A stretch of DNA of 64,000 nucleotides, from NCBI GenBank assembly GCA_015143295.1, contig CM026574.1, forward strand, positions 8,310,938-8,374,937, given 5' to 3'. Below the pieces are notes generated by a model, which made no database searches, was not told the origin of the DNA, and worked only from the letters and a program-made list of their open reading frames with translations. The stretch's first letter is position 1, and every line of letters begins with the position of its first letter. Source of the DNA: Tetracentron sinense. Its lineage: Eukaryota > Streptophyta > Magnoliopsida > Trochodendrales > Trochodendraceae. Below are positions 407 through 62,134 of the stretch, piece by piece. A program made the translations under genes and the position numbers.

Positions 407-1548
407 AGGGCCAGGGGTAGTGTAGGTTCTCGCTCTCGATTTTATTTTAGCCCAATGGGTAGAGTAATCGAGCTAATCGAGCTGATGGTTTCCACCATGT
501 TTTACCCCACATAATGAAAAATCCCCTAAAGACGAGATCGGATAGAGTTTAATCACACCCACAATGTCCTTTTTAACACATTAAATGTAGTTAAGATTCA
601 TTATTCCTTAGGGTTCAACAATATAACCTTCGTTTTTAAAAAAATATTAAAAAACATTTTACTCTAGTTAAAAAATTAACACTTATGAATAATATGTTAT
701 AAAAAGGCCAAGTTATATTGTTGTCTGTTGAACCCTAAGGGTTAGTGAATCTCAGCCACAGTTAATATGACACGTGTTGACTTGTGGGTGCAATTGAATT
801 CAAGGAGTGATTGAATTCGAGGAGTTCAATGGTAGTTGACTGTGATCGGATCTCCCTAAAGACAAGTCTTGTCAATTTATGAATAAATTATATAAAATTT
901 CCCTAATTTAATGTTCAGATCAACCCTCCTTAAGATAAGCCCTTTTGGAGTGGTTGCTTGGACTTACCCTATGGTACCGTAGCGGCTACCTTAGGTTTGA
1001 CTGTGTGTGTTAGTTACATGATAACATTTTCATCAAAAAAAATATGTTCAAATCAATCTAATGACTGTTAACCACCATACATTTTGATTTCTTATCAAGT
1101 ATTCTAAGATAAGCATATCAACCATTTACACATCATATTCAGCTCTTGTGCTTAACTTGCATATCTTTATATTAAAATAATTTTTCATATATCAATGATT
1201 ATATAGGCTCACTTCTTAGAAGTCATCCATTCTTCAGTTCTTAGTATTAAGAGAGGAAAGAAAAAGATTGATTACATATCTGTAATCCAGATACTTGAGA
1301 GAAGTAAGAGCATGATAAGCTTCATTACTTGGGGAAAAAAAGAAGTTAAATTCACCATCTCCTAATTAGATTCAAGACATTAATGTTGTTTTGTGGTATG
1401 CTAGTTTGTTTTTTCCAAAGTAATTAGGAAAATGTGGAGGCTTTCAAATGTCTGCATATGTTCAATGGACTTTGAGGATTAAGGCAATGAACAAGTATAT
1501 GATTTATAAATTTACTGATAGTTGTGTCGTTTTAGCATATTCAACTCG
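407..1548 (+). repeat. Left arm of the long inverted repeat
   Basis: It pairs with 11030-10536 and then 3573-2934 on the other strand. Landmarks shared by both arms are the GGGCCAGGGGTAG end, the core-MITE block (545-830), a CCCTAAAGACAAG block near 852, 'cccttttggagt' near 937, a TTACATGATAACA block near 1013, and ATTTATAAATTTA near 1505. Pairing fades at about 1548. No gene lies in it. Confidence 0.8.
545..830. repeat. Core-MITE copy embedded in the left arm
   Basis: Two inverted arms (about 545-625 and 715-800) enclose an AT-rich centre. Each arm holds the core that recurs through the window: a run close to GTTAAGATTCA or TGAATCTCAGCCACAG and then a GTGTTGACTTGTGGGTG-type outer part. Downstream at 799-828 there is a degenerate ATTGAA...TTCAAT palindrome. 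The same block sits at the equivalent place in the right arm, so it was there before the arms diverged or the arms have been homogenised. Confidence 0.7.
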
Positions 1549-2539
1549 GAAGCTCAACAACGGAAAACTGACCCAGGAACATTAATTAAGAAGCCAGAGC
1601 AGTGAGATAAGGTGGAAAAATTGGGAGGTTTATGTTAGAAGCTAAAGCTTCTTGAAGTTATAAACATTGTGATTTGAGGTTTGTGATCAATGTAAAGAAG
1701 TTGTGCAGTAAAAGACCCTCGGATCAAGAACCTTAATTGCTTTTGGATCAAACTATCACTTGTTTGAATATTAACCTTTTCAGGATATGAGGAAGCCCGT
1801 AAACATGTGAATTTGTATTTCAAGAAGAGAACTCTCATGCCAGGTAGTCTTTAATTTCCATAAGATAGAATGGGGACTGGTTTTCTTGTGTATCTACTGA
1901 ACATGTAATACGAGCTGTGAAGAATTTGTCTTGGAGAAATCTAAGGTACTCTTTGGGTAGACCATGAAGATTCTTACGACCTGCATCCTGGGAATATTAA
2001 TTGGAGCAAATGCATGGGTGGTAGACTCTACTTAGCGTCTTCTTATTGGAACTTTGCATTCTAATATTGTAATCTGTGAGCTTCTTTACAGATATCTACC
2101 AAGAACTGGTGGAAGCATGAACTATATACTTTGATGTGATAAATAGAAGAAAAAAAGATTAGAAGGATCCTGAGACGATTACCAATCTGATTTCTAGTTT
2201 ACAACAATTTTTAGCACTGCCTGACCGTATAAAGCTTCTTAAATTTAGATATTATCACTTGGTTAATGTAAAGTAGAGGAGGGTAAGAATGCAGAGGGAA
2301 TTGAGTATGAGTTTGAAGTCCTCAAAACCGAAATCTCTGGGGACAACCTATGTTTTGACTCCAATGATCTCTACAACATAAGTCGAGTATAGGGATACAA
2401 AAGAGTAGTGCAAAAAAATTATAGCTACATTTAACTCATGCTCATGTTTAAAGTATAAAACGTAGGTAAAAAATAAGCTTCAGATTCAAATTTCAAAATA
2501 AATTCAAAGTTGCCTTGAATATATGCAATCCTTAGTGGT
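1549..2539. other. Interior of the long-TIR element, no recognised gene
   Basis: About 1 kb of unique sequence between the arms. Only short reading frames are present, the longest being 67 codons on the minus strand at 1635-1838, with no recognisable motif. No transposase motif was seen. Confidence 0.5.
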
Positions 2540-2815
2540 CCGAATTTCCTGATCTGGCTGCCACCTTTGAAGAGGAGTGAGAGTTGGCAACAATGGTGAG
2601 GTCTTCCAAGAAAGGGATTTTGTTGTGCTTCCTTTACAATATGAAAGTTGGAGATGAGAGTGAGGGCTTCTGGACGTGGGGGACTGTGAAAGGAGAGGAC
2701 TTTGCAGGGAAGATAGGTAGATGAGAGAGTTGCTTAGTGAAGGTGAGATGTGAGAGACTTAGTGTTGCAGACGTGAGAGTGCATTGTTGGTGCGGCAAGT
2801 GATCCCTTATATAAA
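2540..2815 (-). pseudogene. Possible captured 5' gene fragment (transit-peptide-like) inside the long-TIR element
   Basis: On the minus strand a TATA-like TTTATATAAGG near 2806-2818 is followed by a Ser/Thr/Leu/Pro-rich reading frame poor in acidic residues (for example TSATLSLSHLTFTKQL, then PAKSSPFTVPHVQKPSLSS). It runs past one in-frame stop into LEDLTIVANSHSSSKVAARS. The composition is that of a plastid transit peptide. The nearest ATG is one base out of frame, so it is broken. I cannot name the parent gene. MULEs are known to capture gene pieces, which would explain it. It could also be chance low-complexity coding potential. Confidence 0.35.
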
Positions 2816-2933
2816 TCAAGATCAAAAGAGAGAAAATGAAAATTGATTGGGAGACAAAATAGACATACACACGGATAATGAAAAAGCAAAACAGAAAACC
2901 CAAAAAAGGGAGGGAGCACCGTTTCGTTTCCAA

Positions 2934-3573
2934 GTTTAATATGCTAAAACTATAGAACTATCAATAAATTTATAAATATCCTATTTACTCATTATTTTAA
3001 TTCTCAAAGCTCACAGAAGATATGCAGACATTAGAAAACCTCAACATTTTTCTAATTATTTTGGAAAAAACAAAGTAACAAACCATCATACCACAAAAGA
3101 GCATTAATGCATTTGAATCTAATTATGGGAGGCTAGATTTAATTTTTTTTTTCCCCCACGTAATGGAGCTTATCATGCTCTTGCTTCTCTCCAATGTCTC
3201 GATTACAAGTATGTAATCACTCTTTTTTTTCCTCTCTTGATACTAGGAACTAAAGAAGGGGTGACTTATAAGAAGTGAGCCTATTTAATGTTTGATATAT
3301 GTAAAATTATTTTAATATAAAGATATGCAAGTTGAGCATAAGAACTGAATATGGTGTGTAAATGGTTGATGTGCTTTCCTTAGAATGCTTGATAAGAAAT
3401 CAAAATGTATGGTAGTTCACGCTCAGTAGATTGATTTTCTTTTTTTTGCAAAAATGTTATCATGTAACTAACATACACATACTCTAAACTCACACACACA
3501 ACCATACCTAAGGTAGCCGCTAATGTGCCATAAGGGTAAGTCCAAGCAACTACTCCAAAAGGGCTTGTCTTAA
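2934..3573 (-). repeat. Right arm of the long inverted repeat, inner part
   Basis: Inverted match to about 930-1548 of the left arm. It ends at 3573, where the 17-bp direct repeat (3557-3573) marks the LINE insertion; the arm resumes at 10536 after the second copy of that repeat. Confidence 0.8.
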
Positions 3574-3616
3574 ATGATGCAAGGAGGGGGATACACCAAT
3601 GTAAGGGTGGATATCA

Positions 3617-10535: not shown

Positions 10536-11030
10536 GGAGGGTGATCTGAACATTAGAGTAGGGAAAATTTATTTAATTTATTTATAAATTGACAAGGCTT
10601 GTCTTTAGGGAGACCGGATGACAATCAATTGCGATTGAACTCGGGGCGAGTTCAATCGCACCCACAGGTCAACACGTGCCCTTTTTAACCCATATTAACT
10701 ATGGTTAAGATTCACTAACCCTTGGGGTTCAACAATATAACTTTGCTTTTAAAAAAAACAATATTAAAAAAATATTAACCCTAAGTGTTAATTTTTTAAT
10801 TAGAGTTAAATGTTTTTTAAAACCAAGGTTATATTGTTTAACCCTAAGGAATAGTGAATCTTAACCATAGTTAATATGGATTAAAAGGGGCACTGTGGGT
10901 GCGATTGAACTCTGTCCAATCTCATTGTTAGGGGATTTTTCATTATGTGGGGTAAACCATGGTGCGCTTGAACTCTGCCCATTGGGGTAAAATAAAATAG
11001 AGAGAGAGACCCTGCCCTACCCCTGGCCCT
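10536..11030 (-). repeat. Right arm of the long inverted repeat, outer part
   Basis: Inverted match to about 407-930 of the left arm, resuming right after the LINE's 3' target duplication. It includes a core-MITE copy and the CTACCCCTGGCCCT terminus. Confidence 0.8.
10630..10915. repeat. Core-MITE copy in the right arm, with perfect terminal palindrome
   Basis: The two inverted arms around an AT-rich centre contain GTTAAGATTCACTAACCC (left) and GTGAATCTTAACCATAGTTA (right). The left outer end holds a 13-bp perfect stem, TGCGATTGAACTC at 10630-10642 and GAGTTCAATCGCA at 10648-10660, with loop GGGGC. It is the counterpart of 545-830. Confidence 0.75.
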
Positions 11031-11040
11031 AGTGTACATT

Positions 11041-14090: not shown

Positions 14091-14130
14091 CAAATACATG
14101 GAGATTTTTCAATCTCCATATATTTGAGGG

Positions 14131-19494: not shown

Positions 19495-19570
19495 TTAAGC
19501 TTGACCATGGTTAAAGGAGTGTTAAAAGGGACACGTAGACATGGCATTTGACTACATTGTTAAATGCGTA
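19495..19570 (+). repeat. Single arm of the core MITE
   Basis: Contains CCATGGTTAAAGGAGTG, GTTAAAAGGGACACGTAG and a decayed CATTTGACTAC...AAATG palindrome, matching the arms at 45822-46045. The partner arm is not visible. Confidence 0.6.
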
Positions 19571-27721: not shown

Positions 27722-27962
27722 GAGTTCGGATGGGCAACAACGCACGCTGTTGCGCTGTTGCCCCTTTGTTTCTTACAAAACAATGGGGTCCTTTTTTTTA
27801 TTCCCAGTTTACCCTTGTTCAAAATTTGCCCCTTTGTTTTTTACAAAGGAAGGCCCCATTTTGAACAAGGGTAAATTGGGAATAAAAAAAAAGGACCCCA
27901 TTGTTTTGTAAGAAACAAAGGGGCAACAGCGCAACAGTGTGCGCTGTTGCCCATCCTAACTT
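27722..27962. mobile_element. MULE-type MITE with hairpin-bearing TIRs
   Basis: A 241-bp element made of two inverted arms of about 105 bp, nearly identical. GCTAAGAGG flanks it exactly at 27713-27721 and 27963-27971, a 9-bp target duplication as made by Mutator-like transposases. Within each arm GGGCAACAGCGCA pairs with TGCGCTGTTGCCC to form its own stem-loop (perfect in the right arm, 27921-27952). No coding sequence. Confidence 0.93.
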
Positions 27963-28575: not shown

Positions 28576-29088
28576 CTAGCGGAAGGCACGAGCGTGGCAC
28601 GTGTGTGTAAAGTCCAATGCACGTGAGAGAGAGGGGTGGGGGAGAGCGATTGGGGTGAACCCTAGAGGTGAGTGAATTTTAACCACAATTAAGGAGTGTC
28701 AAAAAGGACACGTGTTAACCTATGGTTGCAATTGATGAGAAAGGGGTGGTTTGAGGTGAGTGAATTTAATCACAGTTAAGGAATGTCAAAAAGTGTAGAT
28801 GAGAAAAGGGTAGTTTGGGAATTAAGTAAAACATTAAACTAAGGTTTTGTCTTAAGGGTAGTTTGAGAATTTAGCAAAAATAGGCAATGGTTTGAGAAAT
28901 GGGTAGTTTGATAGATTATAGATGAGAAAGGGGTAATTTGCGAATTAAGTAAAACATGAAATGGAGGATTTGTAAGGTTTGTAAATAAGGGTAGTTTGGA
29001 AATTGGGAAAAAATCAGGCTACGGTTTGTTAAGGGGGGTAGTTTGGAAATTTCCATAATTAGGGGGGCTTCTATCATTATAGTAGAGA
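28576..29088 (-). mobile_element. Short Helitron (513 bp)
   Basis: Minus strand: starts TCTCTACTATAATGATAGAA and ends GCCTTCCGCTAG after an imperfect GC-rich hairpin. Host bases are A (28575) and T (29089). The interior has repeated GGGTAGTTTG(G/A)GAATT blocks and two arms of the core MITE (28665-28800). A shorter relative is at 61879-62134. Confidence 0.8.
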
Positions 29089-31224: not shown

Positions 31225-32560
31225 TAACTTCAAGAGTTTGTGAATCTTAACCAAAGTTAGTAAGGGTGTGTTCGGTTGAGGGATAAATGGGTGCAAGAAA
31301 AGAAAGTAAAGTAAAGTAAAGTGAAGTAAAATAAAAGAAAGGGAAAGTGAGTTTTCTCCTGTATGTTTGGTTTGGGAGAAAAGTGGTATAGAAAGTATAT
31401 TTTTTTCTAAATATACCCCTTGTTCACATTTACAAAACTCTTTTGATAAAATAGTAGAATTGGAATAATGATGAGCCTTTTTCACTTTCTCTCACTATTC
31501 CACCAAAAAGTTAGAATATGAAATGGATGTAAGTGCAAGAAAATCTGTCACTATTGAGCATCTTGATTCTCTAGAAAGTGAAAGTTTCTTGCAAACTGAA
31601 CATGGGGTAAGTGGGTGTTTCTCTCACTTTCTTTTACTTCCCCCACTTACCCCCCAAACGAACACACCCTAAGTGTAAAAAAGGACACATGGAAACCTAT
31701 AGGCAAGCATTAACTATGGTTAGGGTAGTTAACTGAAGGTTAATTTCTTTTTAAAAACAAAGGTAGATGGATGAACCCTAGGGGTGAGTGAATCTTAACC
31801 ACAGTTAGTGGGTGTTAAAAGGGCCACGTGGCAACTTATAGGCGCGCGCATTAACTGTGGTTTAGGTTAGTCAACCCAAGATTATTAAATTATTTTTTTT
31901 CTAAAAAACAAGGATAGATGGATGAATCCTAGGGGCAAGTGAATCTTAACCACCGTTAGTGGGTGTTAAAGAGGACACGTGGCAACCAATAGGCATGCAC
32001 ATTAACTGTGGCTTAGGTTAGTCAATCAGGGGTTAATTTTTTTTCTAAAAACAAGGTTAGATGGATGAACCCTAGGGGTGAGTGAATCTTAACCACAGTT
32101 AGTGGGTGTTAAAGGGGCACGTGGCAACCAATAGGCATGCGCATTAACCGTGGTTTAGGTTAGTCAACCCAAGATTAAAAAATAAGGGTAGATGGATGAA
32201 CCCTAGGGGTGAATGAACCTTAACCACAGTTACTTGGTGTTAAAGGGGTCATGTGGCAACTTGTAGGCGTGCACATTAACTGTGCGTTAGGTTACTCAAT
32301 CCAAGGTTAATTTTTTTTCTTAAAAAAAAAAGGATAGGTGGATAACCCTAGGGATGAGTGAATCTTAACCACAATTAGTGGGTGTTAAAGGGGACATGTG
32401 GCAACCTGTAGGCGTGCATGTTAACTATGGTTGAAGTTAGTTAATACAAGGTTAATATTAAAAAAAAAAAAACTAAAAATCAAGGGTAGATGGATGAACC
32501 CTAGAGGTGAGTGAATCTTAACTACAGTTAAATAGTTGTAAAAATGGATTCATGTCAAAC
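31225..32560 (+). repeat. Tandem array of a core-MITE arm, about 140-bp unit
   Basis: After removing the Tourist MITE (31264-31669), seven to eight head-to-tail units are seen. Each has GATGGATGAACCCTAGGGGTG, then GTGAATCTTAACCACAGTTA, GTGTTAAA, (C/A)ACGTGGCAACC, TAGGCGTGC and TTAACTGTGGTTTAGGTTAG followed by a T/A-rich stretch. Units differ by point changes and by the length of the A/T run. The core is the same as in the MITE arms elsewhere in the window. Confidence 0.9.
31264..31669. mobile_element. Tourist-type (PIF/Harbinger) MITE inside the array
   Basis: The ends GGGTGTGTTCGG and CGAACACACCC are inverted, with TAA on both sides (31261-31263 and 31670-31672), the 3-bp duplication of PIF/Harbinger. 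406 bp, with an AAGTAAAGTAAAG run near the left end. It interrupts one array unit between GTTAG and TGTAAAA, so it came later. Confidence 0.9.
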
Positions 32561-39602: not shown

Positions 39603-42396
39603 TGTAGAACCCTGGAATCCGAGTTCACGGAGCTATCAATAGTGTTAGTGAATAGTATCCTTGTATGGTGTGTATAAAGGCCTAAAGCCTTCCATTTTGT
39701 TCTTGGCAGTATGGTGAGTCAAATGAGGGTTTTAGGTGCTTGTGTTGAGGTTCAAAAATAGAGTATAAATATGCTCTATGAAGAACCCCGGAACTTGGGA
39801 TGACTGTAGAGTGAATAGTGCCATGAATATTGTTTTTCAAAGCTTAAAGCCTTGGGTTTTGCAATAGTTGTGTTATGATGCAGAAGAGGGTTTTGGATTC
39901 CACTTTATGTTCATGGTATGATGAGTTTTAAAGTCTTAAGGGAGTTCAATTTCATGTTTGAAAGAGTTAAAAACATAATTTGGAAAAGTTCGAAGTGTGA
40001 AAGAGAGTGAGTATTAACATACCATCAACTTGTGGGAACTCTAGTGTCATCACCACTCATTGGAATTGGTTGATTTTTGAGCCATTAGAAAGATGTGGGA
40101 ACCCTCTTCGAGATTCATGTTCAACATTTTTTCATATTTTGAGTCGAAGTTGGGTCAAACGCCGAATTCCCGGGAACTGGTCTGCCGAAGAATTTCTGGA
40201 ACAGTTTGGACTGGTACACTTGTGGGCTTATTTCGACCCTTTAAAACTCAGAATTTAGTTTTGTGAAAAACATGAAAGTTGTTCCTCTTTGAATTTAGAA
40301 TCCAATGCAAGTTGAATTGTCAAAATTTGATCACCGAGTCAAAAGTTATGGCCGAAACGCCAAGGTAGACAAACAGGGAAGCATGACTGAGAGACCAGCG
40401 GTCGACTCCACTACCGGTCGACCGGTCATGACCAGGGGTTGACTGCTCTCGCACTTTTTTGTATGGGGGTTTATTCCAGAACCCCCCAAGTGAACCGGTC
40501 GACCGGTGGACACCTCCAGTCGACCCCTCCTTGCCTTTTGGTGCCTAAACCGACCTTAGGAGATCTTTTGTGGGGGTATAAGGGGTGTTTGACAACCCCT
40601 TTCCCTATAATACACCCACACTCGTGGCTAAGGGTTTACACAACCCTTAGAAGAGATTTTTGAGGATTTTGAGAAGAAAGTTAGGGTTTTGAAGGGGGCT
40701 TTGCTAGTGTTCTTCGAAGATCAAAAGGTGAAGCTTGTTCTTGCTTCCGAAGTTCGATCTTCACTTCCACGAGTCTTCTTCAAACTTGAAGCTCATCTCT
40801 AAGTCATTTCTCAAGTGCTCAACCAAAGAGATTTGGTTTGAGAAAGGTAGATACACTCTACTAGGTTTTTATGCCATAACCCATATTGTAAAAGTAAGAT
40901 AGAAAATCTGTAATTGTGATGTGAGTTAATTTGTGATGCCTCTATGCCTTAACCCAAAGCATGAAAAACGTGTGTTCTTACTACTTAGTAATTGTGTGAT
41001 GATTCAATTGAGAAAAGCATGATTAAAAGACTGAGTTTTGGGAAAAACCAAGAAGAAAACCTATGTGTTTTGATGAAGACAAGTAGAAAATCCTACTAGT
41101 TATGATATGATGATTCTATGGTTAATACCAACTGAATGAAATGATTATATGATGGATTCAAGCATGTGCCATGTGTAAGTGATTATGTGATTTAGATTAA
41201 ATAAAGTAGAAAAACATGTGCTATATGATCAAGTGTTTCCAATTACCTATCATGTTCACTCCCTATTGTATATGAACACCATATATGCATGATCGAGTTT
41301 TTGTATATGTACATGTATTGTGAAAGCAAGATAAAAGATGGAAAGTAAAGCAAAAGATGAATAGTAAAGCAATTGTAAAGAAAGCAAAGTAAGCAATTGT
41401 ATTGGAAGGATGGTAGTGGGCTCTCACCACAAGCAGGGTGAGCATTATCATCTGATTCCAAGTAAAACCATGAATAAGCATTTATATTGGAAGGAGAATA
41501 GTGGGCTCTCACCACAAGCAGGGTGAGCATTATTCTCAGATTCCAAGTAAAAGTATTTGTATTAGAATGAGGATATTGGGCTCTCACCACAAGTAGGGTG
41601 AGCATTATCTTCTGATTTCAAGTAAAAGCATTTGTATTGGAAGGATGATGGTGGGCTTGCACCACAAGCAGGGTGAGCATTATCATCTGATTCCAAGTAA
41701 AAGTATATATATTAGAAGGATTACAGTTGACTCTTACCACAAGCAGGGTAAGCATTGTCATCTGATTCCAAATGAAAAGCCATGTGTAAAGTAAGTGAAA
41801 CGATAAGAAAGCAAAAGTAAAGTATAAGAAATGAAGCAAAAGATGTATATGTATAGTATTATGCACAGTGTAAGTAAAAAGGGATTTCAGTAATTTTTTA
41901 AAGTATTTGCATGTGTATATGATGAACTGCCATATGAAAGCATGTTATGTTATGACATTATTATCTAGTGGTTTGTAGACGCTGAGTATTCCATGCTTAG
42001 CCGAAGTTGTTATCTTTGACAGGTTTTGATGAGTGTGCTCCTGAGCCTTGGATAGAGGAGAAGTACTATGATCCAAAGCCTACCATGGATCATCCTCATG
42101 AGGATAGAGTACAGAATAGGAGACCCTATTTAGATTATTGGTGAGGGAGAGAACATGTATATTTGATAGTGGGCATGTCCACTTTACACTTATATATTTT
42201 GTATATGTTATGACGGACGAGACTTAGAATACATATGGTTTTATATGTTTAAAAAAAATTGTATGCTTCCGCTATTTTGTGCCTTGTGTATTTCACAGGT
42301 TGGTAAGTACACCTTATGTGTCATCACATGATAGTATGACACGACGGTCACGAGCCAAGTATCCCTAACTCCTAGGGGGTATTTTGGGTCACGACA
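39603..42396 (+). mobile_element. Solo LTR, 2.8 kb, Gypsy-like
   Basis: Starts TGTAGAACCC, ends GTCACGACA, and is flanked by TGAGG on both sides (39598-39602 and 42397-42401), an exact 5-bp target duplication. No primer site or pol is present, so it is the product of LTR-LTR recombination. It holds a tandem array (41395-41790) and CCGGTCGACCGG palindromes near 40415 and 40497. The size and internal arrays fit the large-LTR Gypsy lineages. Confidence 0.88.
41395..41790 (+). repeat. Five-unit tandem array inside the solo LTR
   Basis: The unit is about 80-90 bp, with GTATTGGAAGGA, GTGGGCTCTCACCACAAGC, AGGGTGAGCATTATC and CTGATTCCAAGTAAAA. Five copies, each a little different. Confidence 0.93.
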
Positions 42397-43918: not shown

Positions 43919-44140
43919 GGCAAAAGATTAGCTCTGGTGCCTGCCCGAGCTAAGCGCTCGGGCATCCACCCACCATAAAACATGTGGCCTTTTTAAACGA
44001 AAAAATATTCAATTGGTCAGAAGTCAAAATGATGGGACAGAGTGAAATGACTTCTGCCCAGGATTTTTCTCACAGGTGCCTTATGATGGGTGGATGCCCG
44101 AGCGCTTAGCTCGGGCAGGCACCAGAACTAATCTTTTGCC
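43919..44140. mobile_element. MULE-type MITE with hairpin-bearing TIRs
   Basis: 222 bp with inverted ends of about 58 bp that differ at two or three bases and start GGCAAAAGATTAG. TTCTTTATT flanks it exactly (43910-43918 and 44141-44149), a 9-bp duplication. Inside each TIR the stem GCCCGAGC-TAAGC-GCTCGGGC is perfect. Confidence 0.95.
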
Positions 44141-44945: not shown

Positions 44946-45821
44946 TTTGATGGGCATTTGGTTCTGGGATTTAAAGAGGTTGTTACCATAAGCAACCTCT
45001 ACTATGCGTTGATGTGATTTACTCCATTTGTTTTATAAATATTATTGTTATGGATTATACTTTTCTATATTATGTCAGTTTTTTTTCCTGCTCGTATGTA
45101 TGTATTGTAACGATCATTTTAACGGTTCACCTTAATACACAAGGACTCAACCTTCTAATCATGCTTACAGGTATAGAGATCTTCCTATGTGTACAAAAAT
45201 GTCACCCTATGGAATAATAAAAATACCAATGATATAACTACTATTCTTATCATTTTCAATAAAAATTAATTCCAAGTTTCTTCATTTACAAAGATATTTT
45301 ACACATCCCTACCATGTGGTGGAGGGGAAGAAGTGTCCTGGTGGTTTACAACCCCACTTGCTATTCTAACAGGATCAATAAGGCCCAATCATTGAAATTT
45401 TAAATAATTAATCTAATCAAATGATATTGAATTAAAGAAATCATTTCATCACATTACTTCAATTCCTTCCTTAGAATGTATGTTGCTTGCTCTCTTCTTA
45501 TTATGTATAATAACTTTGTAAATAATATATTTTGTTCTGTTATCAATATGCAGAGGGTTGATGGTGGTGTATCTAACCATTGTACACCTCCATATCTTAC
45601 CATTTGGTGTATATATATTTACCTTTAGATATGGCATAACTCTCACAGGTGACAGGACTAAGTCATTTAAGTTCTAGAAGGGGCTCACCCTACACATAAG
45701 TGTTGGAAATCTATCTAGAAAAAGTGGCATGTTGTGGGATGATAGAGGTGGGAGGTAAACTTTCAAAGTACAAGCGTTAAACCGAAGAATATAATTTTTT
45801 GGGCAATGATTAGCCCACTAC

Positions 45822-46045
45822 ACATTTGACTATGTAGTCAAATGTCATGCCCACGTGTCCCTTTTAACACCCCTTCAACTATGGTTAAGTTAATGAAAAT
45901 TAAGGTTGAAGTTTTTTTTCCTTTTTAAAACCTAAGGTTAGATTGTTTAACCCTATGAGTAAGTGAATTTTAAGCATAGTTGATGAGTGTTAAAAAGAGA
46001 GGCATGGGCCGATGAGGACCACACATGTGACTACATAGTCAAATA
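45822..46045. mobile_element. Core MITE with palindromic ends
   Basis: Left end ACATTTGACTA-TG-TAGTCAAATGT (45822-45845, 11-bp perfect stem), then CACGTGTCCCTTTTAACACC and CAACTATGGTTAAG. On the right are the inverted core (GTGAATTTTAAGCATAGTT, GTGTTAAAAAG) and TGACTA-CA-TAGTCA (46028-46041). AT-rich centre, no coding. Confidence 0.8.
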
Positions 46046-46228
46046 CTGCGATATGACAAATATTTTCCTAATTTTTTGGTGTAAAATGATTTAAATAAAT
46101 TATTCTTTAGGATAATTGGGATTGAAGAGTTGTGTAAAATAATAGAAATAATTCTTTTAATATTGTTTTGCATTTTTGTCTTCTTTTTATCCTTTCCGTG
46201 CATCACACGGGCTTCTTACTAGTTATTA

Positions 46229-47195
46229 TCTATACTATATACTAAAGAAATTAGGATGCCTAGGTGGCACCTTCTTTAGTCTTTATTTTCCCTTAGTTTT
46301 GTCACGTCATCCTCATCATTTATTATATTGTGTTTGCACTCTAAAGTCTTTTATTTCCCTCCTCTTCATTTATGAGTTCACCTAGGTGACACCCATAAAT
46401 CTCTCAACAAACACAATGCTTCCCAAAAAAATTCATAAGAGAACTGACTTACCTCTTCCTATTCTCTCATTCAGAAATGGGGTATCGCGCCCTTCTTCAG
46501 TTTTTATTATTCTCTTACTTTGCCACATCTTCTCTCTACTTTCGGCTTCGGATTCTCTCTAGCAGCAACCCGAGAGGTGCTCTCGGGCAGCCATACATCA
46601 TGCGGCAAGTGGCTGGAGAAGTCATTTCATGGGCCCCATGAATTTTGACTTCTCCCCATTTGATATCTCTTTCCCTTTATCTCACTATTTTATCGCTATG
46701 TGTCAAATAATGTGGGGAGAAGTCAAAATCATGGGCCTCATGATATGACTTCTAGTACAGCCACCTGCGGCATGATGTATGGCTGCCCGAGAGCACCTCT
46801 CGGGATGCTGCCAGAGAGAATCCGAAGCCTCTACTTCTTTCTCCTCTATGCCACATCACCTTTCCTTTAAGTAAAACTTTAGAAGCCGAAATGATCTTCT
46901 TGGGTGCAGATACAAATGCCATTTTCTTACTTCTCTATTGTTTCTTCCACCAAGAATCTAGCATACAGGATTTCACAGACTTCACCTTCCAGAAAGATAG
47001 CGGTTTTCGAAGACTTCATCTCCCAAGAAGAGGCCGTCTCTTTTTCTCCCTTGAATTGTCAAAACTCTCTACCTCTTTTTCTCTCTTAAACTGTTAAACC
47101 CCTTCCCTATTTTAAACGGCGTTTCAAAAATGGAGAAAGACCAGATGTGTGAAATGCATAGTAGAGATTTCTCAGGATGCGCCTTTCGCCATTTC
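46229..47195 (+). mobile_element. Helitron 5' end, family of 43498-43896, right end not found
   Basis: Starts A|TCTATACTATATACTAAAGA, followed by AATTAGGATGCCTAGGTGGC, closely matching the 5' end of the short Helitron on the other strand. It lies six bases after the 3' end of the preceding Helitron. I find no matching hairpin and CTAG before the LTR at 47196, so the right limit is a placeholder. Confidence 0.55.
46544..46829. mobile_element. MULE-type MITE with hairpin-bearing TIRs
   Basis: 286 bp with inverted ends of over 60 bp starting GGCTTCGGATTCTCTCT. Flanks TCTACTTTC (46535-46543) and TCTACTTCT (46830-46838) agree at 7 of 9. Within each TIR CCCGAGAG-GTG-CTCTCGGG is a perfect stem. The layout matches 43919-44140 (GATT, CTCTGG, stem, then CA-CCA), so the two are related families with different stems. 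Confidence 0.9.
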
Positions 47196-50100
47196 TGTAA
47201 CGCCCCATAATTTTAAATAGTAAAATTATGCGTTTATTGGTCCTTAACTGGGTTTAAATACTCAAGTGTTTGTTAAATTAATAAAAAGTGGGTTTTGCTC
47301 GGGATTGAAGTCCACCGAGGAAATCTTAGTATCTTTTCTCAAAAATCACACACAGTGTGCCGATCGACTGCTGGGACACACCCCTATGGTATCGATTCCG
47401 TCAGATATCATTTCGCGGGACCGCGTGACCATTATGTGTGATAAAATTGAGAAAAATGGGAAATTTCCAGATTTCTAGAAATTAAATGGGAACCAATATC
47501 TGTTGGAGATCCTAATTGAAATTTGTGCGGCTGGTACTAATGCATGCCGGTCAGCCGTGGGGACTAATGTCTGTCGTCTCAGCAGTTAGTTATCTCAGAC
47601 AAAGAAACAACGACTTGTTTTGTGTCCGAAATCAGAAAATTAGTGGGTTTTGTAGTTTTCTTCCGGACTAAACTGCAGCTGTCAAAACTCAGTATTTTTC
47701 CCTGAAATTTTTACAGTAGGTGTCAGACTGTGCCAAGTTCGGTCACCTGAAATTTCATCACTATCGGGTATCATATAATAGGATTTCGGATGGCATATTT
47801 ATGAAAAAATGAGAAACTCCGGTCAAACCGGTCAAATTGGTCAAACCAAGTCAAATCAGTCAACGCCACACCATTTTCGTCATGTGTGTCGCACATGATC
47901 TTACCACATATCCTTGCCTATATAAAGGGAGGCAACCCCCCTCATTTCTCACAGAGTTTACAAAGCATTGAAGTGCTGCCCCGACTCCAATCTAGAGAGA
48001 GAAAGTGAGGAGAGAGAAGGGAAGAGAGAGGAAAAGGAAGGTCACCTTAGGGTTTTTTGACGTCCCCGACGCGTTGGCGGCGTTTGATTTTCTCTCTGGT
48101 GTCTCGTTTGACATGTAGTGAGAGAGACAAAAAGGTAGAGAGAGAAAGTTGCATGCACTCTACCTTGGGGTTGATTGTCCTCCCAGACACATTGACGGTG
48201 CCCCTTTTTGAACTAGCTATCTCGAAAAGCGTGAACCAAGTAAAAACTCTTCCATCTCTTCACTTTTCCCTATTATTTGCTATATTTTTTATGTGGAATG
48301 TATGTGCATTGATGGAAAAAGGGTCTGAGACCCCATGGATGTGTTACAGGAAGGTGGTTTTGCGTGAAAAATGAGTAGAGAGGTGTAACCCTCGGTCTTG
48401 GGTCTCAAAACCCCAGATTTAGACTCACTGTGTAAAAGACGTGGATGGAAAAATGGTCGGAGACCTCTATGTGATGTTGTGATTTTATGTGGACCTTCGG
48501 GGAGCCCAGATCGGGTCTCGGGTAAATTGTATCGTCACCCTGGGGTGTGAAAAAATTATTTTGCAGGTCGTATAAGGCTATGGACACATCCATTAGCCTG
48601 GAAGTGTTCCCTAACGGGACGGTGTGTTACTGGATTTGGTTCACGGGCGCGAGGCCCGAGTATTTCAGTTAACCAAGCGAGACTTGGGTTAACTGGGGTT
48701 AACCTGTGGTAGAAAACCTAACCAAGGTTAAAGTATAATCCTCCGTGACTGATAGTCGGGAGTGGGTAGAGTTGATATCCATAGATCCTCTTTAACTAGG
48801 TCAGGGGAGAACAGATTGTTGTGTTATCTGATAGATATGCCATACCGAGGTTAAGTCAGTAGGTTGTGATGCCTCTGATAGATATGTCGTCCGTACCGTG
48901 ACTGAGTCAGATGGTTGTGTTTTCTGATAGATATGCCGTTCCGAGGCTGAGTCAATAGGTTGTGATGCCTCTGATGGATATGTCGTCCGTACCGTGGCTC
49001 AGTCAGATAGTTGTGTTATGGATAGATATGTCATAACGAGGCTGAGTCAGTAGGTTGTGATGCCTCTGATAGATATGCCGTCTGTACCATGGCTGAGTCA
49101 GATGGTTGTATTATCTGATAGATATGCCGTGAGGATAGAAGTCACCAACGTGACTGAGTCAGATGGTTGTGTTATTTGATTGATATGCTATACCGAGGCT
49201 GAGTCAGTAGGTTGTGATGCCTCTGATAGATATGTCATCCGTACCGTGGCTGAGTCAGATGATTGTTTATCTGATAGATATGTCGTACCGAGGCTGAGTC
49301 AGTAGGTTGTGATGCTTCTGATAGATATATTGTCTGTATCGTGACTGAGTCAGATGGTTGTGTTATCTGATAGATATGCCGTACCGAAGCTGAGTCAGTA
49401 GGTTTTGATGCCTCTGATAGATATGTCGTCTGTACCGTGGTTGAGCCAGATGGTTGTGTTATCTGATAAATATGCCGTGAGGATAGAAGTCCCCACCGTA
49501 GCTGAGTCAGATGATTGTGTTGTCTATAATCTGATAGATATGTCGTGAGGATAGAATTCTCCATCGTGGCTGAGTCAGATGGTTGTGTTGTCTGATAGAG
49601 ATACCGTGAGGTTAGAATTCCTCACCGTGGCTGAGATTAGACGATTGTGTTGGTTCTAATGGGTGAAGGCCCGGATTATGTATCGAGTCTATGGACTCAA
49701 GGTTGTACGAAGTCTAATGACTCAAGGTTGTATGGAGTCTATGGACTCAAGGTTGTACGAAGTCTAAGGACTCAAGGTTTGATTTCATTGGGTGTAAGCC
49801 TGGTTGATCTAAATAGTTATCATGGAGGTATGGGACGCCATTGTAACAAAATTAATGTTAACGGATTTGGAAATGGATAGCGAGTCTACGAACTCTAACT
49901 TGGACATTGAGTCTACGGACTCAGGTTAAATACGGGTGAAGGCCAGTTGATTGAGTCTGCGGACTCAAGGATAGAGTGTGAGCAGTTGTCTGGGATGGTA
50001 ACCTAGTGGTGTAGACGATGATTGGATGAACTTGAAAATTGAGGTTGGGAACCTCGAAATAGGGTGAAATAGCCCTGAGTGACCTCGGGTCACGGATTAC

Positions 50101-56090: not shown

Positions 56091-56444
56091 TTGGATGACC
56101 ATGTTGCTTGCTAATTTTGTACGCCCATTAGTCTCCACGTAGCATCTCCATTGCACAATGCTTGCTCTTTAGTTTGATGCCACATGTTTGCTTGCATGTC
56201 AAAGTTCATTTAATAGGGCGACGCCAAAAAATTTTCCTTGGAGGGCCAAAATACATGTATCAAAAAAATTAATAGTTTGGGGTTTGGGGTGTAGGCTTCA
56301 ATATTTTCTTTTTTGAGTAATGGGTCTACAGTCGTCATACAATTGCTAATGTTATATTCCAATAAAGTTTTAAATAAATAAAGGCCTAGTAATATGTTGC
56401 TTTTGAGAGAACCATCATATAAATAAAAAAAAAGAAATAGATAT
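56091..56444. other. Unassigned spacer
   Basis: No gene and no repeat family recognised. Confidence 0.35.
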
Positions 56445-56715
56445 ATAGCGGAATGCACATTCGGCTATGCCGGCCTTCATTGATCCATGCTCTCCTTCTT
56501 AATACCCACCAACTGTGCTTAAGATTCACTCACCCCTAGGCTTTATCCATCCAACCTTTATATTTTTACAAAAACATAATTTAGTTAAGCTTAACAATAT
56601 TTAAAAGGGGTGTTAAAAGGGACACGTGGACTGACATTCGGCTTAACAATAGTTAAAAGGAGTGTTAAAAGGGACATGTGGATGGGCATTTGGCTATCTA
56701 GCCGGTTACACAGTC
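56445..56715. mobile_element. Core MITE with palindromic end and a doubled right arm
   Basis: Left palindrome ATAGC-GAATG / CATTCGGCTAT (56445-56468, one mismatch), then TTAAGATTCACTCACCCC (left core). On the right the block GTGTTAAAAGGGACA(C/T)GTGGA with an adjacent GCATTTGGCTATC or ACATTCGGCTTAAC outer part occurs twice in tandem (about 56612-56640 and 56672-56699). Confidence 0.7.
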
Positions 56716-56884
56716 CACTAAGCACTGCTCTAAATAAAATTAACTACAATTTTAAATAAAATTAATTTTATTTTTTATATTATACATATAACAAATTACA
56801 TATATTTTTTAGAGGGGACAAACTTCCCACATAACCAACTAACTAAAGTTATTTTTGGGGGCCACTATATATAGATAATAGAAA

Positions 56885-57196
56885 AATATTTTTACCGACT
56901 AGTCTTCCTTTCCATAGCACATTGTTTGCTCTTCACATGCTTTCTTCACACGCTAAAAGCAAGGTATCAGGGAAACCATAATCATGCTAGAGGGAATTGC
57001 TAATCATAATTAGAGGTGTGCTAGTTCTACTCTCAAACATTCCCAAACATTCCCAATTTTCAGTAAAAAACCAACACCTCTTAAATCAAGAATAGGTGTT
57101 AGTTTTTGGCTAAAAGTAAGAAGATGTGTTTTTTGACGGAGAATTAAGAATGCTTGAGAGAAGGGCTAACACGGCTCTAGTAATTAACATGATGGG
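56885..57196 (+). repeat. Tandem segmental duplication, copy 1, first part
   Basis: Matches 60656-61074: CCGACTAGTCTTCCTTTCCA, AAACCATAATCATG, TTAGAGGTGTGCTA, AAGAATGCTTGAGAGAAGGG and TTAACATGATGGG. Copy 1 continues at 60114 on the other side of the solo LTR. Confidence 0.85.
57008..57186. mobile_element. Small MITE-like inverted repeat
   Basis: The ends AGAGGTGTGCTAG...CTCTCAA and (reverse complement) AGAGCCGTGTTAG...CTCTCAA pair over about 31 bases. A second copy lies in the duplicate at about 60901-61062. Confidence 0.6.
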
Positions 57197-60113
57197 TGTG
57201 AGCACGGATTTCGGTTACCCACATTTGATGAGGATTGTGTTGAGTTTAGAGTCGCCACTTATTAATTCGGTAGGGATAAGTCTCAGGTAATGTATAAGGT
57301 CTTGGTCTGCTTAGAGTTCTAGGTAAGAGGTTCGGTTAAGCCTAGGGAAGATGTTAGGAACCTAATCACTTTCGTTTTACAACGGTTCCCTACTTACTAG
57401 GTTTAAGCCAAATTATCGTCAATGATTAGTCAAATATCATAGGTTTAGTTTATACTAATCCAAGAAAGGAAAAGCTAAACGAGGGTCGAACCCATGCTGG
57501 GTTGCCTACATACTCACATTGGGGTGAGATCAAACTGAGCGTAGTTCTGGCACATAACTCGGTGCCGAGGCTAAGGGAGTGTTGTGTGTGCACCAAGGGT
57601 AGCTTAGGGTCTAGTCCGGTAGACTAAGGTTGGGTTGACTGGGGTTGGTCAAGTGCACGGTATTAGGCTCGATAGGCTAAAGGATAGTCCAATAGACTAG
57701 GGTTTAGGCCCAGTAGGCCAAGGGTGTAAGCTTGAGGTTAGGGTTTAGTCCGGTAGACTAAGGGTTGGGCCCGTAGGCCCGGTAGGCCTTGGATGGATCC
57801 GGAGGTCAAGGGTAAACCGGTAGGCTTAGGGTTAGGCCTGGTAGGCGTTTGATGAACCTGGAGGTCAAGGGTAAGCCCGATAGGCTTAGGGTTAGGCCCG
57901 ATAGGCCAAGATTAGGCCTAGTAGGCCTTGGATGGACCCGGAAGTCAAGGGTAAGCCTGGTAAGCTTAGAGAGGGGTTTAATCGTGATTAGGGTTGCTAA
58001 CTGGGGTTGGGAAAGGTCCAATGTATGTTTATAGTCCTTAAGAGTTGTTTAAACATTTTTGAGGATTTTTTTCCCAAATTTTCCTAAGTTAAATGTGGTT
58101 AACCACGGTTAAGACATGAGTTTAACCATGGTTAGTTCGGATAACCAAGGTTAGATAGTGTACAAAGTCAAATTTGGAATCATACTGCCATTTTAGAATT
58201 TTCATGATTTTTTGACATTTTTCAAGGTTTAAATGGGCTTAACCATAGTTAAACCAAGTGTGAACCATGGTTAAGTTCATCTAACCATGATTAAGCATAA
58301 GCACATAATCCAAAAGTTTCATTTTCCAAGGTTTTGGAATATTCTGGATTTATATGGATTTCTTGGAATTTTTTCATGGGGTTGGACAAATTAACCATGG
58401 TTAACTCTTAATCATGGTTGAGTTAACCATGGTTAAAACAAGGGATGACTTGGGTAGGCTTGGAGTGGACCTCAAGGGCCATGGCAGGTCAGTAGGAGGG
58501 CCCTCATGGGATCTGGGCTCACTGTAGAGAAAAAAAAAAAAACAGAAATCCATACTATCAATAAATGGAGTGCCGACAATTTGGGTGTTTTTTTACCCAG
58601 GTTCACACCCCTATAACTATTGTTAGGGGGTGCTCCACCTATGGTTTTGAAGAGGGGATTCTGAGGAAGAGTTTAAGCCTGAGATGGGCCCCAGGGGTGG
58701 CCTGACGTGGGCCTCCCAGTGTGCCAAAGTGGCACTATCAACATTCACATAAAATGATAAATGTCGGTAATCTTATTACCGACATTCTGGCAGTTTTTGG
58801 TTTTTTAAAATTTAACTCTGGTTAGAGTTAACTACAGGTCTCGAGGTGTTCAGGTAAAATGTAAGGAAGACCGAAGGGTACAACCCATGCCTTTTAGTGG
58901 GCCCTGGGGTGCTCAGGTAGGGTCCATAGGCTCTAAAACAGCAAACGCTCTAGGTGTCGGTACTGAGTTTACCGACACCTTGGGATTTTTCCAGAAACAA
59001 CAATTTGCCCTACGGGGCTGCCAAGGGGGTAGAACCAGGGGTTCCCTCATGACATGAGGGACCCCCAAAAGCTACTGAAGCTACCCGATGTGGTGTTTTA
59101 CCCTTAGGGGGTTCCCCACACCTATGGTGAAGATGGGGGAGCTCCTTTAATGGGTTTTCTAAAAAAATGAAAGAAAACTACTTCCCCTAGAATGGATCAG
59201 GGGCTCACATTGACATCGAAAGCAAATAAAAGAGGGGTAGGGGAAGCCCTACCCTGCTGGTCAGCTGTTGTTGGCCTGGGAACAGTAGTGGTAGTGGTGG
59301 TTCATTGCAGTGTACAGTGCAAGGGAGTAAGGTGATGACTTAAGAAAGCTACAGGGACCTCGTGGGGTTACTAGGAAGAAGGCTAGGAGTCTAGAACTGG
59401 TGTCTGTGGAGTGAGTTCCAGTTGGTGGAGGTGCTGCCCTCTTTATAGGGGAGATCATGGGGACACCCATGTAATAAGGATGAAGGTTGGCAAGATTTAC
59501 ATGGGGCGGAGAGGCGTGTGCAAGTCGGAGGAGTGGTGGTGCAGGCGTGCCTAACCGCATAGGAGAGTTGGTGTGCTGCAGGAAGAAGAAAACAGGATTG
59601 TCGGTAATGTGATTACCGACATCCTCAAAACAATGAATTTTTGAGATGTCGATAATCCTATTACCGACACCATTGGTTTTTAACCAAAGGGCCTGGCCCA
59701 GTGTTGTGCATGCGGCAAGCCCTAGGCCCAGGCCGAGAGGCTTGACCCTTAGGGTTTGTGGACCTAGGGTTTAAGCCCTAAGGGCCTAGGGCTTGTCTAG
59801 GGCTTAGTTTTTCCTAAGTTTTAGACTAGGGTTTGGTCCTAGGGTTAAACTAGGGATTGCCTAGGGTTAACTATTGGTCTAGTCCTAGGGTTAGGCTAGG
59901 GTTTACATAGGGTTAGGCTAGGGCTAGGCTATGGTTTACCTAGGGTATAGGTTGAGTTGAGGGTTTAACTAGGGTTAAAAAATCTAGGGTTTACTAGGGT
60001 TATACCTATGGTCTACTAGGGTTACACGTAGGGTTAAGGGAGTCTACTAGGGTTTAACCATGGTTAAGAACCCTTAACCCTGGTTAGGAGGGTGTAAAAA
60101 TTGGGTGCTTACA
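57197..60113 (+). mobile_element. Solo LTR, 2.9 kb, Gypsy-like, with exact TSD
   Basis: Starts TGTGAGCACGG, ends GGTGCTTACA, and is flanked by ATGGG on both sides (57192-57196 and 60114-60118). No internal region, so an LTR-LTR recombination product. It holds an array of (G/C)GGTAGGC(C/T)-type phrases of about 80 bp (57700-57970), repeated TTAACCATGGTTAA palindromes (58090-58440), four related hairpins (58761-59670) and CTAGGGTTTA-rich sequence (59750-60060). It hit copy 1 of the duplicated block only. Confidence 0.92.
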
Positions 60114-60640
60114 ATGGGAACCAAATCCTCTATGGTTATAACCGGATTTGTGGAGTCCGGTTATGCCCATGAGGTCACCGCGTGTCCCTTTTGACACCCC
60201 TTACTTGAGGCTAAGATTCACCCACCCATCCTTAGTTTTTAAATTACTTTTTTTAATGTTTACTATTTTAATTTTAAAATATTTTTGATGTTTTTTTTTC
60301 TAAAAACTAAGGATGGTTGGGTAAATCCTAAGGGTGGGTGAATCTTAATCACAGTTAAGGAGTGTGAAAAGGAACATGAGGGGACCTCAAGGGCATAACC
60401 GGATTCCCTAAAATCCGGTTATAATTGTAGAGGATTTGGTAAGCACCGTAAGAATGAAGCACAACTACTACTTTATAGCTAGTTTGTAAAAGGAAAATGG
60501 AAAACGGACAGCTTAGAATTTGGCCCGTGATCCCATTGGTCCGCGCCCCCTTTTTACCACCTGTCAACTGTGGTTAAGATCACTCACCCCTAAGGTTAAG
60601 CAATCTAATTATGATTTTCAAAAAAATAAAATTATTTTTT
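60114..60640 (+). repeat. Tandem segmental duplication, copy 1, second part
   Basis: Matches 61070-61590, including the core MITE and the following CTTTATAGCTAGTTTGTAAAA and GTGATCCCATTGGTCC blocks. Confidence 0.85.
60119..60445. mobile_element. Core MITE with CCGGTTAT palindromes, copy 1
   Basis: Both ends start ACCAAATCCTC(T)A and carry a stem ATAACCGGA / TCCGGTTAT (60138-60164) or ATAACCGGATT / AATCCGGTTAT (60395-60422), then the core (GTGTCCCTTTTGACACCCC on the left; GTGAATCTTAATCACAGTTA on the right). TIR over 130 bp, AT-rich centre. The solo LTR lies right at its left edge. Confidence 0.85.
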
Positions 60641-60655
60641 ACTTAATATTTACTT

Positions 60656-61600
60656 AATACCGACTAGTCTTACTTTCCATAGTACATTGTCTGCTCTTCA
60701 CACACTGCATGATCTCCCTTGCACCTGGCTCCGCCATGCATTCAATAATCCAATATAGATATGCCACATCATCCACTTATTATTTACTTAATATGGACTA
60801 GTCTTACTTTCCATAATACAATTTTTGCTCTTCACACGCGCACTAAAAGCAAGTTATGAGGGAAACCATAATCATGTTCCAGGGAATTGCTAATCATAAT
60901 TAGAGGTGTGCTACCTCTACTCTCATCCCTATTTTCACTAAAAACTCAACACCTCTTAAATCAAGAACATGTGTTAGTTTTTGGCCGAAAGTAAGAAGAG
61001 GTGTTTTTTGACGAAGAATTGAGAATGCTTGAGAGAAGGGCTAACGCAGCCCTGGTAATTAACATGATGGGAACCAAATCTTCTACGTTTATAACCGGAT
61101 TTGGGGAATTTGGTTCTGCCCATGAGGTCACCGCTTGTCCCTTCTAACACCCCTTAATTGTGGTTAAGATTCATCCACCCATCCTTAGTTTTTAGAATTT
61201 AAAATTTACTATTTAATTTTAAAATATTTTTAATGTTTTTTTTTTTCCAAAAACTAAGGATGGTTGGATAAATTTTAAGGATGAGTGAATCTTAATCACA
61301 GTTAAGAAGTGTGAAAAGGAGCATGTGACGACCTCAGGCCAAAACCGGATTCCACAAAATCAAATTATAACCGTAGAGATTTGGTAAGCACCGTAATGAA
61401 TGAATCGCAGCCACTACCTTTATAGCTAGTTTGTAAAAGGGAAAATGAAAACGGACAGCTTAGAAGTTGGCCCGTGATCCCATTGGTCCACGCCCCCTTT
61501 CTATCACCTATCAACTGTGGTTAAGATCACTCACCCTTAAGGTTAAGTAATCTAATTATGCTTTTTTTTAAAATAAAATTATTATTTTTAATTTAAATAA
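60656..61600 (+). repeat. Tandem segmental duplication, copy 2
   Basis: Uninterrupted copy of 56885-57196 plus 60114-60640, with an extra stretch at about 60705-60830 that itself partly repeats the opening (GGACTAGTCTTACTTTCCAT). It lacks the solo LTR, so the duplication predates that insertion. Confidence 0.85.
61078..61395. mobile_element. Core MITE with CCGGTTAT palindromes, copy 2
   Basis: Counterpart of 60119-60445. Its palindromes are more decayed (ATAACCGGATTTGGGG on the left, without a perfect partner). Confidence 0.8.
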
Positions 61601-61655
61601 ACTTAATCATGGTTAAACAGGTATTAAAAGGGACACATGCGGTCTGCTTCTCAGG
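61470..61655. mobile_element. Core MITE, GGCCCGTGATCCC subtype
   Basis: Left outer part GGCCCGTGATCCCATTGGTCC, then TCAACTGTGGTTAAGATCAC. Right arm AATCATGGTTAAACAG, then GTATTAAAAGGGACACATG. In copy 1 of the duplication only the left arm remains (60530-60610). Confidence 0.65.
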
Positions 61656-61878
61656 AGTCGGGACCCTTTGTAAAATTATCGAAATATAAATTTTTCGAGC
61701 TGAAGGAAAAAGAAAACCAAACAAATTTTGCTGGCACATGCAGAAGTTGCTTGCAGGAATAGGCAATTGCGTTGTTTGTGCCAGCCAGCTCTGAAGCGCG
61801 TGGTAGATGGACGTATTTACTCTATGTCATGTCAGCTAACAAAAAGGACGAAATGAGTAACACTTTCATACCCTTATA

Positions 61879-62134
61879 CTAGCGGGTGGCACGTGTGATG
61901 CGAGTGAGAGGAAGGAGTTAATCACAGTTAATAGGAGTTAAAAGAAACACGTGTTAACTTGTGGGTGCGATTGAACTTTCCCAGAATTCAATCACGATTG
62001 ACTGTGATTCTATTTTTTAAATAGATAGATGAGGGTAGTTTGGGAGTAAAATATTAAATTAAAGTTTTGTTTTATATAAGGGTAGTTTAGGAATTTTGGA
62101 AAATTCAGGCTACGCCTGCCTCTCCCATAAAGAT
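61879..62134 (-). mobile_element. Short Helitron (256 bp)
   Basis: Minus strand starts TCTTTATGGGAGAGGCAGGC and ends GTGCCACCCGCTAG between host A (61878) and T (62135). It shares CAGGCTACG, GGGTAGTTT and the CTAGCGG(A/G) end with the Helitron at 28576-29088. It contains one core-MITE arm (61915-61970). Confidence 0.65.

Follow-up and report, generated by a model that had tools for sequence, protein, structure and literature searches.

What a MULE transposase reads at the ends of its elements is little known, and the VANDALs are MULEs. According to the available portions of the respective reports, VANC21/VANDAL21 pairs an element-encoded protein with a family-specific motif in non-coding DNA, a likeness to the case described here, although that motif is short and arrayed in one orientation, and 'palindrom' is absent from the text as available (PMC5735166). 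MuTAnT, a Medicago truncatula MULE family of 292 bp, is similar in its 144-bp modular TIRs, strong foldback and 9-nt target site duplication (TSD), but it is one family targeting TA repeats, for which the accessible part of the report describes no subfamily-variable subterminal palindrome (PMC4486113). Muta1, a MULE of Aedes aegypti, shares a TSD of 8-9 bp, whereas its palindrome is short and located at the very terminus, with tandem subterminal repeats replacing the core (PMC5225508). The Tm1 Mutator/Foldback elements show composite TIRs, asymmetric terminal motifs, a 9-bp TSD and MITE-like forms; unlike the present elements they come from a nematode, and their histone hairpin sits between the inverted repeats (PMC3169594). 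MULEs with multiple long TIRs, in which TIR motifs are repeated, carry tandem TIR copies resembling an array found here at 31.8-32.5 kb, although covarying palindromes are not described in the available part of that work (PMC3310237). Finally, in piggyBac and piggyBat the transposase dimer binds a near-end palindrome through two C-terminal domains, the palindromes of these two relatives being unrelated; they belong to another superfamily and thus offer a mechanistic precedent only (PMC11707139).

The window analysed here is a stretch of 64,000 nucleotides from Tetracentron sinense. Its copies belong, with a probability of roughly two in three for the best explanation taken as a whole, to a Mutator-like (MULE) superfamily of MITEs that is very abundant, and the elements themselves are of an already known kind. 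Genome-wide, the core gave 15,602 matches at up to three mismatches (control, 0), the median element lengths are 352 (A), 331 (B) and 268 bp (C), and in the window none of the six copies overlaps an ORF of at least 100 aa, so that the elements are short, non-coding and of high copy number, as MITEs are. Long inverted repeats together with 9-bp target duplications make them Mutator-like by structure. Many B- and A-type places match their query in both orientations, at about 66-79% and over most of its length, as expected of the long TIRs of MULEs (about 100 bp or more), and in C elements a consensus comparison indicates that the two ends have mainly the hairpin and the core in common. At family-defined borders, a 9-bp TSD (at least 8/9, border ±1) was present in 8/36 A, 15/36 B and 21/33 C pairs. 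Over all pairs, duplications reached at least 8/9 in 44/105 (0-2 per group in shifted controls), at least 9/10 in 28/105 and at least 10/11 in 10/105; some of the 105 pairs have one end in common (L028, L055). L003, L025 and L026 were dropped as overlaps from the TSD, decay, C/D-end, hairpin-score and B-lineage analyses; L001, L031 and L061 were also dropped from one set, in which the window sequence stood in for these three. IS200/IS605-like elements and Helitrons carry a hairpin at their ends without TIR or TSD, and both are ruled out by the inverted ends and the 9-bp TSDs.

Within the window, whole elements were delimited without assignment of a strand. Exact duplications (9/9) of about the length typical of MULEs flank the A-type element at 534-854, with degenerate hairpins (CCTAAAGAC at 525-533 and 855-863), and the C-type element at 45801-46068, L061 (TAATTTTTT at 45792-45800 and 46069-46077). 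A second A-type element (10610-10923) has diverged flanks in common with the first, in inverted orientation (394-946 versus 11043-10519, 75%). The D-type element at 56434-56715 has uncertain borders and a partly duplicated right end. Clear TSDs are absent from the two B-type elements, one at 60117-60443 with a hairpin at both ends and another at 61070-61388, whose hairpins have diverged and whose segment is related to 60.1-60.6 kb. Solitary E-type ends lie on the plus strand at 60499-60600, with a core of the C-right type, and at 61446-61560, a paralogue of the former, while the minus strand carries solitary core copies at 19519-19565 (outer sequence C-like) and 28672-28714, and a solitary A-type end at 61911-61997 whose hairpin (about 61966-61997) has diverged. 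At 31788-32531, also on the minus strand, core-bearing units of about 145 bp each are arranged in tandem; judged by its single units, the array is a candidate MULE with tandem TIRs. The core positions given by the initial annotation are borne out, since matches at up to three mismatches were found there (19 for GAATCTTAACCACAGTTAA and 15 for GTGTTAAAAGGGACACGTG in the window; expected, 0.04 and 0.01), and one core is indeed common to groups with different palindromes. A further core match, missing from that earlier list, lies at 60564.

The genome contains at least 150 scored matches to PF10551 (MULE transposase), all over the cut-off, and none of those listed was linked to these TIRs as an autonomous partner. 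A MULE domain is found within 12 kb of three out of 253 element places, where about 0.8 would be expected, a count that is not decisive for a link. One of them, C13:25367464, is probably a short element, because nearly the whole B query matches it in both orientations; at another, on C3, the MULE domain is on the outer side. No binding protein for the palindromes was identified.

From the outside in, an end comprises a family-specific terminus of about 20 bp, a palindrome of 20-35 nt, a spacer of 7-17 bp and then the conserved core (about 45 bp). In thousands of ends of short elements across the genome, a palindrome lies some 20 bases in from the border. A hairpin score of at least 8 was reached by 111/178 ends, against 2/178 mononucleotide shuffles, which rejects chance palindromes at the family level, and against 15/177 flank pieces; ends scoring below 0.5 were left out of the hairpin-score and decay counts, and the hairpin-score set covers 89/105 pairs. 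Four palindromes had been proposed in the window, just at the element border. They start instead some 20-25 bp inside, between terminus and core, and three of them are family-wide hairpins, all on the plus strand: TGCGATTGAACTC-GGGGC-GAGTTCAATCGCA of type A (10630-10660, 20 bp from the terminus), CATTTGACTA-TG-TAGTCAAATG at the C left end (45823-45844) and ATAACCGGATT-CCCTAA-AATCCGGTTAT at the B right end (60395-60422), whose partner end carries ATAACCGGATT-TGTGG-AGTCCGGTTAT (60138-60164) with a single T-G mismatch. The fourth, ATAGC-GAATG/CATTCGGCTAT at 56445, was a misreading, as judged by eye: relatives have CATTCGGCTA-TG-TAGCCGAATG there (L091), and the left hairpin of the window copy lacks its 3' arm. 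A C element was found nested in an A element (TSD 8/9), the rejoined A aligning to another A copy at 307/352 aligned positions, and the element border therefore lies outside the palindromes. Thus, the check suggested with the initial annotation, run on sampled copies, gave stems differing by paired changes between subfamilies and a border beyond the palindrome.

Stem letters differ between subfamilies, and well-preserved copies keep their self-complementarity; this variation with matching halves suggests that symmetry itself may matter. Even the two ends of one C element carry different palindrome letters in about 10 of the 33 sampled C pairs. In the C/D group, six perfect stem types exist, transversion pairs among them. 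The alignment of 70 C/D ends (2/72 left out) has 94.0% of its cells paired, compared with 87.4 in shuffles, and 46 double-change cells, compared with 13.3, with 0/500 shuffles as high. Two of the five measures are not above shuffles, namely the pairs with double changes (3 versus 3.1; 402/500 as high) and the pair types (13 versus 11.6; 71/500 as high), the signal being confined to three adjacent pairs; within the stem, CATT and CTATGTAG are nearly invariant. Slid versions of this stem pair less (30-36%), as expected from a structure read from the same sequences. CATTNNNCTATGTAGNNNAATG has 1,353 matches genome-wide (control, 0), and among the matches listed with letters 33/50 are perfect, where shuffles gave a mean of 12.1 and a maximum of 21 in 10,000. 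C-right ends at 0 mismatches comprise 31 pure CCA/TGG forms, the two mixed forms numbering 1 and 0; such missing mixed forms are also compatible with a one-step change of both arms. In the B lineage, 53 ends show 5 pairs with double changes versus 2.8 (18/500 as high) and 9 double-change cells versus 4.4 (9/500 as high); the B/F alignment leaves out 5/71 listed ends, and the 53-row set also 8 F rows and 5 long-gap B rows. Covariation rests on few independent paired changes, about 8 by our estimate. Compensation can be mimicked where CpG sites decay in both arms (CGG/CCG to CAG/CTG).

In resident A and B copies, single changes are far commoner than double ones, and the latter are not clearly above independence (pair 23/49: 6 seen, 8.05 expected). 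Maintenance of pairing in resident copies is thus rejected, and since their decay is uncompensated, the symmetry is set in the source copies. Two-fold symmetry would be required in those source copies that amplify, and the most likely role of the palindrome, for which we would claim somewhat less than an even chance, is that of a putative two-fold-symmetric site on which a dimeric DNA-binding protein, either the transposase or a partner, would land. piggyBac and piggyBat provide the precedent for dimers on end palindromes (PMC11707139). The half-site preference of such a protein would drift between lineages, and the conserved core may represent a second, slowly evolving binding site.

It is also conceivable, although unlikely, that the palindrome is recognised by its shape, through extrusion of a hairpin or cruciform close to the end, so that any paired sequence would serve. 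The A, B, C/D and G2 types have unrelated stems, and many C elements differ between their two ends, as this would predict. By eye and without counts, the stem extends outward past an asymmetric bulge into outer stems that are also family-specific (CACG/CGTG at C left, ACCGC/GCGGT at C right, GGACYG/CRGTCC in D and GGTG/CACC at the left of L047). Folding is far better than that of shuffles in some copies (z -4.0 for L033, type A; -5.9 for L067, type C; -4.9 for L091, type D), but two of the ten sampled barely exceed them (z -0.66 and -0.95). Moreover, cut-and-paste DDE transposition works on duplex DNA, and the nearly unvarying parts of the C/D stem also count against this reading.

Just as unlikely is neutral copying, in which hairpin-templated copying or inversion transfers one arm to the other and the symmetry regenerates itself, no selection being involved. 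Among A-type sites at up to two mismatches the loop is inverted in 259 versus 2,471, which suggests arm exchange; the scarcity of mixed C-right forms is in line with this, as is L070, where the AGA/TCT of the left stem is repeated in a right stem identical save one letter. However, the fixed position of the palindrome across several families is left unexplained, and the excess of single over double changes in resident A and B copies implies that arm copying is rare outside transposition.

The initial annotation envisaged exchangeable hairpin cassettes on one mobilisation core, which now seems improbable. Among sampled copies the A/B/F and C/D stems are not joined by any intermediate, as cassettes would predict, and group F is weakly mosaic, its terminus being nearer B than A (17/24 versus 13/24 identical) and its spacer nearer A (8/17 with B versus 11/17). 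Nevertheless, its core is equally close to both (36/43 each), as is the inner part (36 and 37 of 45); this speaks against a clear recombinant with an A-like inner part, and F is apparently an intermediate between A and B. A and B align over the whole end, with the GGGGA loop region in common, and paired substitutions connect the stems within C/D and within B. Swappable hairpins are not needed within these lineages, and free swapping of palindromes is not the main mode. That the palindromes are host flank or, as the initial annotation had also proposed, were acquired at insertion has next to no probability, since they lie inside 9-bp TSDs, typically at both ends, and are common to dispersed copies, and this analysis found no support for it.

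Returning to the reading in which symmetry is set in source copies, a more general and still doubtful proposal is that of a MULE end module whose sequence is free but whose symmetry is constrained: subfamilies and even opposite ends of a single element would re-invent the stem letters with pairing kept, so that the machinery or a replication step would read or generate a hairpin and not a fixed word. Natural paired variation of the palindrome beside the core constitutes a ready-made mutational series for transposase end recognition. It also carries the warning that families split by 'different TIR' may be a single lineage. If the symmetry is functional, it would mark the active part of MULE ends and help to pair MITEs with their autonomous partners.

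The core, which lies inwards of terminus, palindrome and spacer at each element end, recurs in the window as the initial annotation had claimed, since its two motifs have 19 and 15 matches where 0.04 and 0.01 would be expected, far above chance. With ≤3 mismatches allowed, the 35-base core CACGTGTCCCTTTTRACACCCCTTAACTRTGGTTA gives 7,823 + 7,779 matches genome-wide, versus none for the reversed sequence used as control. Copies were collected with three window queries, A (10590-10950), B (60080-60480) and C (45790-46070), each standing for a group of ends, which yielded 90 loci, and six further loci were fetched for the D type. Taking 40 scored candidates per search favoured copies resembling the queries, and all counts refer to one plant genome. 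Two MITE-like inverted repeats of the window, 46544-46829 (72 nt at 94%) and 43919-44140 (60 nt at 97%), lie outside the core matches. The window also carries a large near-palindrome at 930-3573, whose central part of about 1.4 kb is enclosed by several matching arms in inverted orientation, among them arms of 215 nt (89%), 175 nt (79%) and 118 nt (83%). Further repeats are inverted arms of 117 nt (27723-27961; 81% complementary, 5 nt apart), and tandem arrays at 48812-49652 (96-bp and higher-order periods) and 41390-41788 (75-bp period).

When the outer 75 bp were examined in the 178 ends of 89 elements with both ends scoring ≥0.5, a hairpin score ≥8 was reached in 111 ends, versus 2/178 mononucleotide shuffles and 15/177 flank pieces taken 35-110 bp outside. 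The 5' arm begins 20-25 bp from the terminus in 95 of these 111 ends. Around 324 core copies, the outer side has peaks of hairpin centres at about 30 bp (126) and 20 bp (31) from the core, the other outer bins holding 0-14; the inner side, where the middle is AT-rich, also has values of up to 46. The palindromes are TGCGATTGAACTC/GAGTTCAATCGCA (loop GGGGA) in A, ATAACCGGATT/AATCCGGTTAT (loop TGGGG) in B, CATTnnnCTA/TAGnnnAATG (loop TG) in C and D, and GTCACCTCCTCGG/CCGAGGAGGTGAC in the G2 type, found at locus L017. Among ten sampled copies that were folded, two were hardly better than shuffles. C left ends have a second small hairpin, GGGC-N8-GCCC, right at their terminus, as predicted in L067 (1501-1516) and L065.

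The C/D stems carry the triplets TGA/TCA, CCA/TGG and AGA/TCT, and D copies CGG/CCG, CAG/CTG and TAG/CTA. The covariation of stems, for which the initial annotation suggested a test, is found in part. In 70 C/D ends, 94.0% of cells are paired versus 87.4 in shuffles, and both partners have changed in 46 cells versus 13.3 (0/500 shuffles as high), but neither the pairs with double changes (3 versus 3.1; 402/500 as high) nor the pair types (13 versus 11.6; 71/500) are in excess, because the variation is confined to three neighbouring pairs. Slid versions of the structure show 30-36% pairing, as expected already from its derivation on these ends. Genome-wide, CATTNNNCTATGTAGNNNAATG has 1,353 matches versus 0 in the control. 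Of 50 sites read among the 100 matches listed, 33 have perfect stems (TGA 19, AGA 9, CCA 3, TAA 1, CCG 1), their shuffles giving a mean of 12.1 and a maximum of 21 in 10,000, which is no strict probability because the sites share a contig and a common descent, and some elements contribute both of their ends. Three forms of C-right end were counted without mismatches: pure CCA has 31 matches, one mixed form has 1 and the other none. In about 10 of 33 C pairs the two ends differ, TGA against CCA. The CGG to CAG change could be explained by CpG decay, to which the G-C/C-G and T-A/A-T changes cannot be attributed.

The covariation signal in B is modest: 53 ends give 5 pairs with double changes versus 2.8 shuffled (18/500 as high), 9 double-change cells versus 4.4 (9/500), 92.1% of cells paired versus 90.9 (5/500) and 11 pair types versus 8.8 (23/500). 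At least one end of the B copies L047, L048, L027 and L028 has other paired inner letters (GATTTG/CAAATC, GATGTG/CACATC, GACT/AGTC). In the 75 ends of A and the 64 of B, changes are mostly single, and doubles show no clear excess over independence, apart from the two innermost B pairs (2 versus 0.22 and 2 versus 0.12). Resident copies therefore only decay, and since this decay is uncompensated, it must be in source copies that the symmetry originates or is selected.

The palindrome may be a dimer site with drifting specificity, which would fit a two-fold symmetry with changing letters, and for which piggyBac and piggyBat offer a precedent (PMC11707139). Neutral copying of one arm onto the other is a live alternative: 259 A-type sites have an inverted loop versus 2,471 (genome-wide, ≤2 mismatches), about one in ten, so that exchange between arms, or inversion, must have taken place. 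Recognition of a hairpin whatever its sequence, or copying templated by one arm, would lead to predictions that overlap those of the dimer site.

Exchange of palindromes between A/B/F and C/D stems is also conceivable, and agrees with the lack of intermediate stems among the sampled copies. Group F, which lies beside the A element at ten of the A loci fetched, is closer to B in its terminus (17/24 versus 13/24 for A) and to A in its spacer (11/17 versus 8/17 for B); its core is equally distant from both (36/43 each), and its inner part nearly equally alike (36/45 A, 37/45 B). By these likenesses, F is more like an intermediate between the two than like a recombinant. The A copies L034, L036, L041, L045, L046, L049, L051, L053, L054 and L058 have alike flanks and, close by, an F-type end with its terminus towards the A element; a larger repeat may have carried them as it spread.

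With family-defined borders (±1), a 9-bp target-site duplication (TSD) with ≥8 matches flanks 44 of 105 paired elements (A 8/36, B 15/36, C 21/33), versus 0-2 per group with borders moved outward. With one mismatch allowed, the 105 pairs give 49, 51, 44, 28 and 10 TSDs at 7, 8, 9, 10 and 11 bp. The 61 pairs without the 9-bp TSD (≥8 matches) are explained by decay, wrong borders or nesting. Window elements 534-854 and 45801-46068 have CCTAAAGAC and TAATTTTTT, respectively, on both sides; the two window B copies had no clear TSD at their borders. At locus L089, an A element is interrupted by an inserted C element; rejoining its flanks gives an A sequence that matches an A copy without insertion at 307 of the 352 positions aligned. 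TSDs and nesting thus locate the palindromes within the elements, and the readings of them as host flank or as picked up at insertion both fall. Copies L064, L066, L069, L072-L074, L077-L084, L087 and L090 of C have alike flanks (..AAACCCTATTTTAAAA..) and a target near ATTTTAAAA, hence a common target repeat. The D border is undefined, because L092-L095 have about 60 bp in common past the presumed terminus, at least the last 34 of which are present in the window D copy (56400-56434).

By TSD and terminal inverted repeat, these are Mutator-like (MULE-like) MITEs, for which a search for a transposase of their own found none. Their closest known systems in the literature searched are MuTAnT, Muta1, Tm1 and tandem-TIR MULEs. 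In PMC2563033, the primer published for the MuDR TIR starts GAGATAATTGCCATTAT and contains, close to the end, an inverted repeat of 5 bp, a lead rather than a test. No title or abstract opening among those listed in searches of the open-licence literature announces covarying subterminal palindromes in MULE ends.
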